The translations under genes and the position numbers were made by a program. The notes beneath the pieces were generated by a model. That model made no database searches, had not been told where the DNA came from, and saw only the letters and a list, made by a program, of their open reading frames with translations. This document shows positions 11,137 through 48,425 of a DNA stretch of 64,000 bases, piece by piece. The first letter of the stretch is position 1; each line of letters starts with the position of its first letter. The stretch comes from Corallococcus macrosporus (GTDB lineage: Bacteria > Myxococcota > Myxococcia > Myxococcales > Myxococcaceae). Location of the stretch: NCBI RefSeq assembly GCF_017302985.1, contig NZ_JAFIMU010000017.1, positions 620,001 through 684,000 of the forward strand, read 5' to 3'.

Positions 11137-12170
11137 CCCGTCAACAAGGCTGTCACACGTTAGGCCGGGGCCCCGAAGGGTCAGGAGTTTTTTCCGGCTC
11201 CGCGCCCACAGCCTGGCCCGTTCTTCCAGGCTGGATGGTTCAAGTGCTTGATATCAAAGGGGAATATCTCGGAGAGAAGCGTCGGCACGGCGAATGCTAA
11301 GGCTCTCCGGCATCAGGAACGGGCAGCACGGCGGGGGGGACGGAGTCGGTGGGGGGGAAGCCGCACTGCTTCGGGGGGAACAGGGCGGGACGGGCAGCAA
11401 GGCAGGACGGGGCAGGGCGGGACGGGGTTGGGGGAGCAAAGCAGGACGGGGCAGGGCGGGACGGGGCAGCAAGGGTTGAACGGGGCAGGACGGGCGGGAC
11501 GGGGCAGCACGCAGGACGGGGTAGGGCGGGTCGGGGCAGCAAGGGTTGAACGGGGCAGTACGGGCAGGACGGGGTAGGGCGGGTCGGGGCAGTACGGGCG
11601 GGACGGGGTCGGGGCAGCAAAGGCAACACGGGGCAGTACGGGCGGGACGGGGTAGGGCGGGTCGGGGCAGCAAGGGCAACACGGGGCAGCACGGGCGGGA
11701 CGGGGTTGGGGAAGTACGGGCGGGACGGGGTTGGGGCAGCACGCAGCACGGGCAGTACGGGCGGGACGGGGTTGGGGCAGCACGGGGCAGGACGGGCGGG
11801 ACGGAGGAGGGGGACGCAACAGCAGCACGCAGCACGGATCAGCAGGCAGTGCGGTCGAGCAAGGCAGCAGGCAGCACGCAGGACGGGGGCTGGGCGGCGG
11901 GACGGGGCAGTGCGCAGTTTGGGGGAGTCCGGCAAAGCGGTCGTGGTCGCCGGACGGGAGACGTGAAGGGCAGTGAATCAAGACGTGGCGGTGCGAGCGC
12001 TTCGCGATCCAGCCGACGGCGGTATCCGGCGACGCGACAGTCAGCACCGGACGTGTGGCGGTGGCGGGTGTGGAGTGGCGGGTCGGGGGGAGCAACACGC
12101 AGCCGGGTCTCGAGGAGGGAGCGCTCCCGGGATCCGGCGTACCTCGCAAATCTCATCGCGCAGGGGCGCG
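11137..12170. other. Long divergent intergenic region with a G-run minisatellite in its centre
   Basis: This 1-kb spacer lies between two divergent genes. Bases 11137-11320 are ordinary and may hold the promoter of the lipoprotein gene; 11380-11830 is the repeat described separately; 11831-12170 is less repetitive but still rich in GCAG/GGAC blocks and contains the leader of the plus-strand gene starting at 12171. Open frames exist on both strands, but their predicted proteins are low-complexity (Gly/Arg on plus, Pro/Cys on minus) and look like by-products of the repeat. I found no RNA gene. Confidence 0.7.
11380..11830 (+). repeat. Degenerate tandem repeat of G-runs (minisatellite, G-quadruplex prone)
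   Basis: About 450 bases made almost entirely of GACGGGG, GGGCAG, GGGCGG and GTACGGGC blocks. Runs of 3-5 G are separated by loops of 1-5 bases, with nearly all G-runs on the plus strand. Basic spacing is irregular (about 9-15 bases). A longer element, GGGGTAGGGCGGGTCGGGG, recurs at 11518, 11571 and 11649, showing higher-order duplication. The array meets the simple pattern for G-quadruplex formation many times over. Its location upstream of 12171 and opposite the start of 11136 leaves a role in regulation or recombination open. Confidence 0.85.
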
Positions 12171-18166: not shown

Positions 18167-19234
18167 ATGGTCCCCGTTGCGCTGCTGCTCGCCTCGTCGC
18201 TGCAATCCCAGACGCCGGCGCCCGCCCCGCGTCCCGCCGCTCCTCCGCCTCCGGCCGCCGTGCGCGCGCCCGCGCCGCCCGCGCCGCCCGCCCTCCCCGC
18301 GGACGCCCCCGCCGCCGAGCGCGCCGCCGCCGCGGCTGAGCGCGCCGCCATCGCCGCGGAGCGCGCCGCCGAGGCCAGCGCCCGGCTCGCGGAGGCCATC
18401 GAGCGCCTGTCCGAAGTGACCACGCGCGGGCCCATTGCCCCGCCGCCGCCGCCCGCCGCGCCCGCCCCCGAGGCCGCGGCCGCCGCGGCAGCCCCCGAGA
18501 AGAAGCCCAGCGTCTGGGACGTCAGCGTGGGCCTGAGCCTCATCTCCCTCACCGGCAACGCGTCCACGCTGACCGTGAGCGGCCTGGCCAGCGCGCTGCG
18601 CAAGACGGACAAGTGGATCTACTCCGTGAAGGCCTTCGGCGCGTACGGCCGCAGCCGCCCGCCCCAGGTGGAAGGGGAGGTGGAGTCCCTGTCCCAGGTG
18701 GTGGCCCTCAACGCGGGCGTCGAGCTGCGCGGGGACCGCCGCTTCACGCAGGAGATCAGCGGCTACCTGCTGGCCGGCGTGGACACGGACCACATCAAGA
18801 GCGTGGAGGCGCGGCCCTACGGTGAAGCCGGTGCCAGCATCTTCTGGTTCGACACCAAGCGGGATGAGAAGGCCAGCGTGCGCGAGACCGTCCTGCGCAC
18901 CGACTTCGCCTTCCGCTACGCCCGCGAGACGCGCTTCCAGTACTACCCGGAGCGCGTGGACCTGCCGGACGTGGACCTGGGCGGTCCGCGCTTCGGCGCC
19001 CTGTTCCGCTACGGCGTCTCCAAGGACATCACCTTCCAGGAAGAGGCGGAGATCCTGGTCAGCGTCATCAGCGACTCGCGCATCCTCTTCAGCAGCCAGA
19101 CGCAGGTGATGGCCAACCTCACCGACGCGCTGGCCCTGGGCGTGGGCTTCCTCGTGAAGTCCGACAGCGCCCCGCCCCCGGGCAAGGTGTCCACCGACAC
19201 GGCGCTCTCCTTCAACCTGACCGTCGCCCTGTAG
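18167..19234 (+). CDS. DUF481-like outer membrane protein with an Ala/Glu coiled-coil insert
   Basis: 355 residues. A short signal peptide (VPVALLLASSLQSQ) is followed by Pro/Ala-rich sequence and a coiled coil made of repeated AAERAA heptad-like units (about residues 45-85). From about residue 110 (SVWDVSVGLSLISLTGNAST) comes a DUF481-type barrel: LSLISLTGNASTLTVSGLAS, WIYSVKAFGAYGRS, VVALNAGVELRGDRRF, YLLAGVDTDHIKSVEARPYGEAG. DUF481 members include YdiY-like proteins. AAGGA at 18155-18159 is the ribosome site supporting ATG 18167. Confidence 0.8.
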   Translation: MVPVALLLASSLQSQTPAPAPRPAAPPPPAAVRAPAPPAPPALPADAPAAERAAAAAERAAIAAERAAEASARLAEAIERLSEVTTRGPIAPPPPPAAPAPEAAAAAAAPEKKPSVWDVSVGLSLISLTGNASTLTVSGLASALRKTDKWIYSVKAFGAYGRSRPPQVEGEVESLSQVVALNAGVELRGDRRFTQEISGYLLAGVDTDHIKSVEARPYGEAGASIFWFDTKRDEKASVRETVLRTDFAFRYARETRFQYYPERVDLPDVDLGGPRFGALFRYGVSKDITFQEEAEILVSVISDSRILFSSQTQVMANLTDALALGVGFLVKSDSAPPPGKVSTDTALSFNLTVAL

Positions 19235-45734: not shown

Positions 45735-46367
45735 TCAGGGGTTGAGGGACCGGACGGTGCGCACGAAGGCGCGCACCGCGTCCAGGTCCTTGATGCCGGG
45801 GGCCGACTCCACCCCGCTGGCCACGTCCACACCGTAGGGCCGGGTGGCCCTCACGGCCTCGGCTACGTTCGAAGGCTTGAGGCCGCCCGCCACCAGCACC
45901 GGCAGGCCGCAGTCCGCCAGCTCTTTCACCAGCGACCAGTCGAAGGTGACGCCGCCGCCGCCGTAGCCCGGGGCCGCGCCGTCCAGGAGCAGCCCCGCCA
46001 CGTCGCCCACGCCCACGTAGGTGCGCGCCTTCGCCACGTCGTCCGGACCGCGCACGCGCAGCGCCTTGATGACGGGCACGCCGTAGCCGGAGCAGGCCTC
46101 GGGGGGCTCGTCGCCGTGGAGCTGCACGGCGGTGAGGCCGCACTCGCGCACGCGCACGCGGATGTCCTCCGGCGTCGCGTTGACGAACACGCCCACCATG
46201 GCGGCCAGCGGGGGCCGCGTGCGCCCGAGCGTCGCCGCCGTGGCCAGGTCCACGAAGCGGGGCGAGGCCGGATGGAAGTTGAGGCCCATCGCGTCCGCGC
46301 CCGCGGCCCACACGCCCTTCGCGTCCTCGACGCGCGTCACGCCGCAGACCTTCACGAGGACGTTCAT
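45735..46367 (-). CDS. trpF: Phosphoribosylanthranilate isomerase
   Basis: 210 residues. [14 protein letters not shown] carries the catalytic Cys, [13 protein letters not shown] and [19 protein letters not shown] follow, with the acidic catalytic Asp in [21 protein letters not shown] is the phosphate-binding end. Overlap of 4 bases (ATGA) with trpC. Confidence 0.95.
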
Positions 46368-47182
46368 GTCCCGCCGCCTTCCAGCCCGAGCAGCCGGCGC
46401 AGGGCCCGGCCCGGGTCGGCGTCGCGCAGGAGGGATTCACCGACGAGGACCGCGTCGGCGCCGGCGTCGCGCGCGGCGGTGAGGTCCGCCAGGTGCTTGA
46501 GGCCGCTCTCCGCGACCAGCGCCGTCGACCGGGAGCGCAGCGCGGGCATCACCCGGAGCGCCGTGCCGGTGTCCGTCTTCAGCGTGGCGAGGTTGCGGTT
46601 GTTGAGGCCGACGATGCTCGCGCCCGCGGCGAGCGCGCGTTCGGCGTGCGCCTCCGTGTGGGCTTCCACGAGGGCGGCCACGCGCACCTGCTTCGCTGCG
46701 GCGACCATCTCCCGGAGCTCCGCGTCCGTCAGCGCGTCCGCGATGAGCAGCACCGCGTCCGCGCCCCAGGCCGCGCTCTCCTCCACTTCGCTGGCGGCGA
46801 CGAGGAAGTCCTTGCGAAGGACGGGGATGGAGACGGCGGCGCGGACCGCGACGAGGTCCTCCAGGCTGCCGCCGAAGTCCGGCCCGTCGGTGAGCACGCT
46901 GATGGCGCAGGCGCCGGCGGCTTCATAGGAACGGGCCACCGCGACGACGTCCGCGTGAGGGAAGGCGCCGCCCGAGGGGCTTTTGCGCTTCACCTCCGCG
47001 ATGACGTTGACCGGATGTCCGGGCACGCGGCGCACCAGCGCCTGCGCGAAGTCCCGCGTGGGGGGATGCGCGCCGTGCGTGGGAGGAGGACGGGTCCCCA
47101 GCTCCCGGCGCTTGCGCGCCATGATGACGTCCAGCGTGCCGGGCGCTTCCGCGGTCTTCGCGGCGGATGACGAGGTCGTCAT
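46364..47182 (-). CDS. trpC: Indole-3-glycerol phosphate synthase
   Basis: 272 residues. [13 protein letters not shown] carries the first catalytic Glu/Lys, [12 protein letters not shown] follows, PVLRKDFL contains the second Lys, [14 protein letters not shown] and LVAESGL close the barrel. It makes the indole ring precursor. ATG 47182 overlaps the stop of the 77-aa frame as ATGA. Confidence 0.95.
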
Positions 47183-47412
47183 GTCGGGACGCCTCGCGTG
47201 CTGGCGTTCGCCGCCAGGGCAATGCCCACCGTGACGACACCTCGCGTGCCGCCAGTCGGCATGCGCGTCGAGGCGGGAGCACCGCTCGCCATGGCGATGT
47301 CTTGCGTGCTGGCGACAGCCATGAACGTCGCGGCAGGAGTGCCGCTCGTCATGACGACGCCTCGCGTGCGGAGGCCTGCCGCCCGCTTCGTGTTCGAAGT
47401 GCGCGCCGTCAT
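47179..47412 (-). CDS. 77-residue repeat-built ORF between trpD and trpC, ATGA-coupled at both ends
   Basis: The start codon overlaps the trpD stop as ATGA (47409-47412). The stop overlaps the trpC start as ATGA (47179-47182). The peptide consists of three to four imperfect 20-residue units, such as TRGVVMTSGTPAATFMAVAS, TQDIAMASGAPASTRMPTGG and the shorter TRGVVTVGIALAANAS. No domain, signal peptide or known family is visible. It may be a real small protein of the trp operon. It may also be a by-product of junction duplication, since each unit begins with a sequence like the trpC start region. Ribosome coupling through to trpC is plausible in both cases. Confidence 0.45.
   Translation of the reverse strand: MTARTSNTKRAAGLRTRGVVMTSGTPAATFMAVASTQDIAMASGAPASTRMPTGGTRGVVTVGIALAANASTRGVPT
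47231..47370. repeat. 60-bp tandem repeats within the trpD-trpC spacer
   Basis: Units begin at 47231 (GTGACGACACCTCGCGTGCC), 47291 (ATGGCGATGTCTTGCGTGCT) and 47351 (ATGACGACGCCTCGCGTGCG), exactly 60 bases apart. A partial copy (GACGCCTCGCGTGC) lies at 47187 by the trpC start, and the trpD end carries GTCATG too. The period is a multiple of three, so the frame is kept. Confidence 0.75.
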
Positions 47413-48425
47413 GCCGCGGCCTTCTGGATGAGCGCGGCGAGCTTGCGTTCGGCGGCCCCGGAGTCGATGGCGTGCTCGGCCCGCTTCACGCCCTCCTTCA
47501 GGGTGTCCACCAGCCCGACGATGAGCAGCGCGGCGGCCGCGTTGAGCAGCACCGCCGTGCGCACTCCGTCACGCTCCCCCGCGAGCAGCCCGCGCAGGCG
47601 CTTCGCGTTCTCCTCCGCGTCGCCTCCCGCGATGGACTCGCGCGGCACCATGGACAGGCCCGCGTCCTCCGGCGTCACCGTGAAGCGGCGCACGGTGCCG
47701 TCCGCGCACAGCTCCGCGACCTCCGTGGGCGCGCACGGCGAAATCTCATCCAGCCCGTCGTGCCCGTGCACCACCCAGGCGCGCCGGCTTCCCAGCCGCC
47801 CCAGCACCCGCGCGGTCTGCTCCACGCGCTGCCGGTCGAACGTGCCCAGGAGCTGGTAGCGCGCTCCCGCCGGGTTCGTCAGCGGCCCCAGCAGGTTGAA
47901 CACGCTGTGGAAGCCCAGATCCCGGCGCGCCTGCGCCACGTGCCTCAGGGCACTGTGGTGCGAGGGCGCGAAGAGGAAGCCCACCCCGTGCTCGTCGATG
48001 TCGCGCGCCACCTGCGCGTGCGCCCGCTCCATGGACACGCCCAGCGCCGCCAGCACGTCCGCGCTGCCGCAGCGGCTGGAGACCGCGCGGTTGCCGTGCT
48101 TGGCCACCGTCGCCCCCGCCCCGGCGGCCACGAAGGCCACCGCGGTGGAGATGTTGAAGGTGTGCGCCCCATCACCCCCCGTACCGCAGGTGTCGAGCAC
48201 CACCTCCGCCTGGGGAGCAATCCTCGCCGCGCAGGCCCGCATGGCCTCCGCCGCGCCGAGGATTTCGTCCTCGGTCTCCCCCTTCATGCGCAGCGCGGCC
48301 GCCAGCGCGCCAACCTGCGCGGCGGATGCCTCGCCCGCGAGCATCTGGCCCATGACAGAGGCCATCTCCTCGCGGGAGAGGTCGCGCCGGCCCACCACCT
48401 TGCCCAGCGCTTCCTTGAGCGTCAT
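47409..48425 (-). CDS. trpD: Anthranilate phosphoribosyltransferase
   Basis: 338 residues. DTCGTGGDGAHTFNISTAVAF binds the pyrophosphate of PRPP. KHGNRAVSSRCGSADVLAALG is the anthranilate-side motif. FAPSHHSALRHVAQARRDLGFHSVFNLLGPLTNPAGA is the family core. It attaches phosphoribose to anthranilate. It begins 3 bases after aroF ends and runs into the 77-aa frame by ATGA. Confidence 0.96.
   Translation of the reverse strand: MTLKEALGKVVGRRDLSREEMASVMGQMLAGEASAAQVGALAAALRMKGETEDEILGAAEAMRACAARIAPQAEVVLDTCGTGGDGAHTFNISTAVAFVAAGAGATVAKHGNRAVSSRCGSADVLAALGVSMERAHAQVARDIDEHGVGFLFAPSHHSALRHVAQARRDLGFHSVFNLLGPLTNPAGARYQLLGTFDRQRVEQTARVLGRLGSRRAWVVHGHDGLDEISPCAPTEVAELCADGTVRRFTVTPEDAGLSMVPRESIAGGDAEENAKRLRGLLAGERDGVRTAVLLNAAAALLIVGLVDTLKEGVKRAEHAIDSGAAERKLAALIQKAAA

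Follow-up and report, generated by a model that had tools for sequence, protein, structure and literature searches.

Diverged copies of the trpC start form an apparent relay frame between trpD and trpC in Corallococcus macrosporus

The 230-nt spacer between trpD and trpC of Corallococcus macrosporus is probably a tandem amplification of the start region of trpC, serving as a relay micro-ORF that keeps the two genes coupled by termination and reinitiation of translation. The spacer lies in a 64,000-nt stretch of the genome (assembly GCF_017302985.1, contig NZ_JAFIMU010000017.1, positions 620,001 to 684,000), referred to here as the window. The analysis supported the reading of the locus as an amplified junction with a specific origin in trpC, whereas the reading of the frame as a gene was unsupported.

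All features of the locus are on the minus strand. The upstream gene, trpD (anthranilate phosphoribosyltransferase, 47409-48425), was identified by Pfam matches to PF00591 (6.6e-90) and PF02885 (1.1e-20), and the downstream gene, trpC (indole-3-glycerol phosphate synthase, 46364-47182), by a match to PF00218 (3.7e-67). The next gene after trpC, trpF (45735-46367), has an xTGA overlap with trpC and provided a control junction. The micro-ORF, our proposed relay frame of 77 codons (47179-47412), starts with the ATG at 47412, encodes 77 amino acids and stops with the TGA ending at 47179. One ATGA (47409-47412) contains the trpD stop and the micro-ORF start, and another (47179-47182) the micro-ORF stop and the trpC start. 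A sequence-only reading of the window had described a 77-residue frame threaded between trpD and trpC and sharing an ATGA with each, which was confirmed by the ORF list, the sequence and the Pfam matches. A 4-nt overlap of start and stop (xTGA) is thus present at both micro-ORF junctions, as in gene pairs coupled by termination-reinitiation (TeRe). An open frame of this length is unsurprising by itself, since a first-order Markov model of the spacer gave a probability of 0.46 that the frame is open, and the opposite strand of the spacer also holds an open 77-aa frame.

Laid out from the ATG of the micro-ORF, the spacer consists of three 60-nt units (unit 1, 47353-47412; unit 2, 47293-47352; unit 3, 47233-47292) and a 50-nt remnant of a fourth unit (47183-47232), the 3' half of which matches units 1-3. 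A tandem repeat finder reported a period of 60 with 2.3 copies and 72% matches at 47232-47369, and copies of a 23-nt repeat occur at spacings of 48, 60 and 60. In ungapped pairwise comparisons, units 1-3 are identical at 36, 35 and 41 of 60 positions. The remnant aligned to unit 1 with a gapped score of 29, and only 1 of 500 shuffles was as good; for units 2 and 3, the numbers were 4 and 10 of 500, respectively. The frame-preserving 60-bp units proposed from the sequence were recovered as the period of 60, but the array does not divide evenly into 60-nt units, as it includes the 50-nt remnant. Other repeats observed in the window are a long degenerate GGGCAGGACGGGG-type tandem array at 11381-11886 (periods 9 to 78), the frames of which read as Gly/Gln/Arg/Thr-rich or Pro-rich peptides, and GCC-rich tandem repeats at 18245-18499 (periods 9, 21 and 27).

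We compared the junction in 16 Corallococcus genomes, including that of the window (G000). Eleven have no spacer and show a direct trpD/trpC ATGA overlap; the other five carry spacers of 230 nt (G000), 62 nt (G013) and 92 nt (G001, G004 and G015). The three genomes with the 92-nt spacer form one clade in the trpD+trpC tree (support 100/99), on which at least three changes of the spacer state are needed. The other boundaries of the operon are more uniform: the trpC/trpF junction is a direct xTGA overlap in all 16 genomes, and the aroF/trpD spacing varies by no more than 3 nt within the genus. One common origin of the genus spacers was considered and not adopted; the seven units fell on one side of a branch whose support, 79/84, is not firm, and constraining four units to group without the three G000 units gave an AU p of 0.021.

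The source of the repeat is apparently the first 60 nt (20 codons) of trpC (47123-47182), which are bounded by CATGACG and CATGGCG. In an anchored test, a unit was compared with the first 60 nt of trpC from the same genome, with the first bases aligned, no gaps allowed and the start codon omitted; the controls were 4050 ATG- or GTG-anchored windows of the 64-kb sequence, with the trp region excluded, and 499 shifted trpC offsets. Units 1, 2 and 3 matched at 34, 33 and 31 of 57 positions, values reached by none of the 4050 windows and none of the 499 offsets. The spacer of G013 matched its own trpC start at 31 of 57 positions and the 92-nt spacers matched theirs at 62, 53 and 55 of 89, and in each case no window out of 4050 reached the same value. 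With the first six bases omitted, units 1, 2, 3 and the G013 spacer were reached by 0, 1, 1 and 5 of the 4050 windows, respectively.

In gapped alignments, the 92-nt spacers matched the trpC start better than 500 of 500 shuffles. By gapped local alignment, the complete G000 spacer matched the 5' 120 nt of trpC weakly (21/500 shuffles as good, with 44/500 for a trpC control stretch and 70/500 for the end of trpD), the match of the G013 spacer to trpC was not significant (141/500), and neither was the start-anchored comparison of the remnant with the trpC 5' end (17/47). We assigned the G000 and G013 spacers to trpC because of the anchored test together with the clear 92-nt cases. Judged by these comparisons, the first 60 nt of trpC were copied in tandem to give units 1-3, which have since diverged. 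CATGACG at the trpC start and CATGGCG 60 nt further on are present in all 16 genomes of the genus, and these two short repeats probably fixed the length of the unit. The agreement of units 1-3 with the trpC 5' end goes beyond chance, and the recurrence of the junction geometry in other species is suggestive.

The recurrence was analysed in a sample of 96 genomes of the family, of which 70 had a TrpC match. The 65 genomes with more than 50% TrpC identity were classed, and G067, G070, G100, G103 and G105, at or below this value, were left out. Direct overlap is the rule (55 of the 65 junctions, a class that includes trpC genes with in-frame N-terminal inserts); six junctions have a micro-ORF with overlaps at both ends and four are of other types. 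The sixth micro-ORF was found in G079, a single-contig genome of the Myxococcus group, where the spacer of 128 nt is joined to trpD by ATGA and to trpC by GTGA. This spacer did not match its own trpC (146/500 shuffles as good), the stretch holding it gave only the self-match at E below 0.01, and the other 26 genomes of the same genus code overlap trpD and trpC directly. Because of the lack of a match to its own trpC and the 26 directly overlapping relatives, the micro-ORF of G079 looks like one of separate origin. We also observed that the two halves of the G079 spacer are alike, both beginning with xTGAGCA followed by CGGCGCC (1/500 shuffles as good), and this micro-ORF may itself be a duplication.

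In the remaining four genomes, G061-G064, which belong to two other genus codes (g27 and g28), the trpD/trpC overlap is lost. The spacers of G061, G063 and G064, of 125 (counted from TTGA), 126 and 96 nt, contain in-frame stops, and in G062 (L148) trpD and trpC are about 2.1 kb apart. Stops in the spacer with trpC intact, which the sequence-only reading had named as evidence against itself, were seen in 4 of the 65 family junctions and in none of the five genus spacers. The trpD/trpC junction seems to be prone to insertions. The trpC genes of G022, G018 and G042 (L018, L019 and L135) carry an in-frame N-terminal insert, LPPGEGRGEG or similar, derived from a CTCTCCCTCTGGGAGAGGGACGGGGTGAGGG-like repeat, and a degenerate relative was seen by eye in the trpD/trpC spacers of G061 and G064. 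A Myxococcus-like trpD-trpC locus (L046) with 80% TrpC identity is also present in BNCN01000001.1, titled Comamonas sp. KCTC 72670, a title that looks wrong.

The micro-ORF spacers, found at 6 of the 65 family junctions, come in four lengths (230, 62, 92 and 128 nt), each of which is 2 mod 3; all of these spacers are open and have xTGA at both ends. The start-to-start distance must equal 2 mod 3 because the frame that begins in the first xTGA must close in the second; the expectation that the length is always a multiple of three was thus off. The Markov model gave probabilities of an open frame between 0.46 and 0.77 across the spacers (the value for G079, 0.66, was computed on 129 nt, the spacer being 128 nt), and the chance that one spacer state qualifies in both length and openness is about 0.22. 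With G061-G064 taken as one assumed event, four of five spacer states qualify (P = 0.009), and with these genomes counted singly, four of eight (P = 0.075). Exclusion of the case that prompted the analysis leaves three of four (P = 0.035) or three of seven (P = 0.18), respectively. These values are suggestive of a spacer frame kept under constraint, and the earlier proposal of an amplified junction whose frame was retained for the sake of coupling was upheld as to the amplification, the units being copies of the trpC 5' end, and moderately borne out as to the frame.

The peptide gave a different picture from that of a conserved protein. Among the 92-nt frames of the three genomes, which are of equal length, pN was 0.18-0.23 and pS 0.13-0.27, values that rest on about 24 synonymous sites. 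In the same clade, trpC after codon 20 had a pN of 0.012-0.019 and a pS of 0.14-0.17, and the first 20 codons of trpC, themselves loose, a pN of 0.047-0.070 and a pS of 0.06-0.12. The near equality of pN and pS indicates no clear constraint on the 92-nt peptides, in the sense that strong constraint is absent and no more than that. Searches with the 77-aa frame against Pfam (E up to 1) and NCBIfam (E up to 0.01) gave no match. When it was used as a protein query against the 96 family genomes, 60 of them, its own included, gave matches at E up to 0.1; the best non-self match (E 4.5e-4, 36% identity) was interrupted by two stops, and the matches did not include the micro-ORFs of G001, G004, G013 and G015. 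The recurring matches to 75-aa frames were taken for an effect of composition.

Shine-Dalgarno sites differ between the spacer types. In G000, a GAGG at 47192-47195, 9 nt before the trpC ATG, is a possible weak site; here and in G013, the site before trpC has an energy of -5.9 kcal/mol, and 29% of 3000 random 20-mers reach -6 kcal/mol or below. In the 11 genomes without a spacer, the median is -4.8 (range -3.9 to -7.4). In the 92-nt clade, the duplication has brought AGGAGG, or a sequence close to it, to within 7 nt of the trpC ATG (-9.4 to -10.3 kcal/mol), and with so strong a site trpC may start by itself in this clade. In G013, a strong site (-10.0) precedes the micro-ORF instead. A better Shine-Dalgarno site as the general reason for the spacer was considered and discarded, as it is true only of the 92-nt clade. 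Given the weak site before trpC, the genome of the window would be the case in which a relay matters most.

We propose the following course of events. Recombination or slippage between the CATGACG and CATGGCG repeats would have duplicated the trpC start region, and the array of G000 would then have expanded, its last unit becoming about 10 nt shorter. As the copies begin as start regions and add up to a length of 2 mod 3, the product is an extra small cistron overlapping both neighbours by 4 nt. Ribosomes finishing trpD could then reinitiate on the micro-ORF, terminate at its TGA and reinitiate on trpC, so that coupling would be relayed over 230 nt that would otherwise break the trpD-trpC link. 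In E. coli and Haloferax, reinitiation is nearly abolished once the gap reaches about 20 nt (PMC10666635); by that measure, an untranslated gap of 230 nt should uncouple trpC, and a translated frame with overlaps of -4 nt at both ends need not. Most likely, the peptide of the micro-ORF has no function and the frame is what is kept. An altered TrpC:TrpD ratio is a possible side effect.

Two other readings take the open frame as either less or more than a relay. The duplication could be real and the spacer neutral, with the frame open by chance, trpC initiating from its own Shine-Dalgarno site and coupling irrelevant. The probabilities of an open frame (0.46-0.77), the AGGAGG or close match gained before trpC by the 92-nt clade (-9.4 to -10.3 kcal/mol, 7 nt away), and the stop-containing spacers that separate trpC from trpD in G061-G064, where the trpC match has no stop, are all consistent with this reading; the weak site of -5.9 in G000 and G013, the four spacer lengths that are all 2 mod 3 and open, and the prevalence of direct overlap (55/65) argue against it, and we regard it as unlikely, though deserving serious attention. 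The sequence-only reading also offered a 'small unrecognised member of the trp operon', in which case the micro-ORF product would be a small protein with a function in the trp pathway; an open frame whose start and stop overlap trp genes fits this idea. The idea is contradicted by the absence of the frame from 11 of the 16 genus genomes, the lack of Pfam and NCBIfam matches, the best match among the 96 family genomes being interrupted by two stops, and the similar values of pN and pS among the 92-nt frames. Neither presence across the genus nor purifying selection, which would mark a conserved trp operon gene, was observed; such a gene is unlikely, and we consider a functional protein of the trp pathway here very improbable.

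The remaining readings concern the nature of the repeat and of the RNA. A mobile or dispersed repeat could have been inserted at the ATGA; the geometry is like that of mycobacterial interspersed repetitive units (MIRUs), in which a gene is coupled at -4 nt to an ORF lying at its start codon. Yet units 1-3 derive from the 5' end of the adjacent trpC, and the search of the own genome for dispersed copies (E 0.001) gave one match among the 40 of 97 first-look candidates that were scored, which largely refutes this reading and leaves it a marginal one at best. A short frame ahead of a trp gene might also act within the operon as a leader peptide or attenuator that senses tryptophan. Such elements have tandem Trp codons and a terminator; none of the five genus micro-ORFs contains a Trp codon (though one Trp occurs in the peptide of G079), no site resembling a terminator or promoter was found at 47100-47500 and no Rfam match at 46900-47700, and the fold at the locus is not unusual (z-score -0.97), making an attenuator barely conceivable. 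Tandem repeats are prone to misassembly, but units 1-3 are too diverged for an assembly artefact (35-41 of 60 identical) and spacers occupy the same place in five further genomes (G079 and four from the genus), so an artefact is scarcely credible. The relay micro-ORF amplified from the trpC start thus remains our preferred explanation.

The closest known architecture is that of the MIRUs, reportedly presented by Supply et al. in 1997, and by analogy the spacer would work like a MIRU junction without being a MIRU. The sequence-only reading had called the arrangement at trpD/trpC unusual, which is fair, yet MIRUs are a known parallel. A 2025 review describes MIRUs as repeats, apparently mobile, that become inserted at start codons, with an internal ORF coupled at -4 nt, and expression of the target gene presumably survives (PMC12548453). 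The spacer shares with them a short repeat-borne ORF coupled at -4 nt, as read from its geometry. MIRUs are described as mobile and as occurring in many mycobacteria; the spacer differs in being single-copy as far as searched and in coming from the 5' end of the adjacent gene, and it does not appear to be a dispersed, mobile repeat.

Both junctions also resemble TeRe at ATGA overlaps in their overlap of -4 nt (PMC6728339, PMC10666635). They differ from simple TeRe in that two overlaps are placed in series through an apparently functionless peptide, the coupling here being predicted from sequence. The likely sole role of the frame, to bring a ribosome to the next start, is also that of short upstream ORFs that deliver ribosomes and of the engineered bicistronic design (PMC12548453); unlike these, the micro-ORF sits between two operon genes. 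In comparison with the design so described, there is no strong Shine-Dalgarno site before trpC in G000, and there is one in the 92-nt clade. No paper on the trpD/trpC junction in Corallococcus, or on tandem-duplicated start regions at ATGA operon overlaps, was found in open-licence PMC full text. In a bicistronic design, the Shine-Dalgarno site of the second gene lies inside the first cistron.

The junctions without a spacer and with spacers of 62, 92, 128 and 230 nt constitute a natural series of species in which to ask whether operon genes must stay coupled and what the outcome is when a duplication breaks a coupled junction. It suggests a source of short in-operon frames that are open to annotation as hypothetical proteins and is a warning against calling them genes. 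A bolder version, which we put forward tentatively and think rather doubtful, is that an amplified trpC start could act as an evolvable relay, in which copy number and restart strengths would set TrpC:TrpD, and which would have arisen more than once in the family. If true, this would be one way for operons to give rise to micro-ORFs that are translated but have no function. The birth of a new translated frame within an operon becomes directly testable in culturable bacteria.
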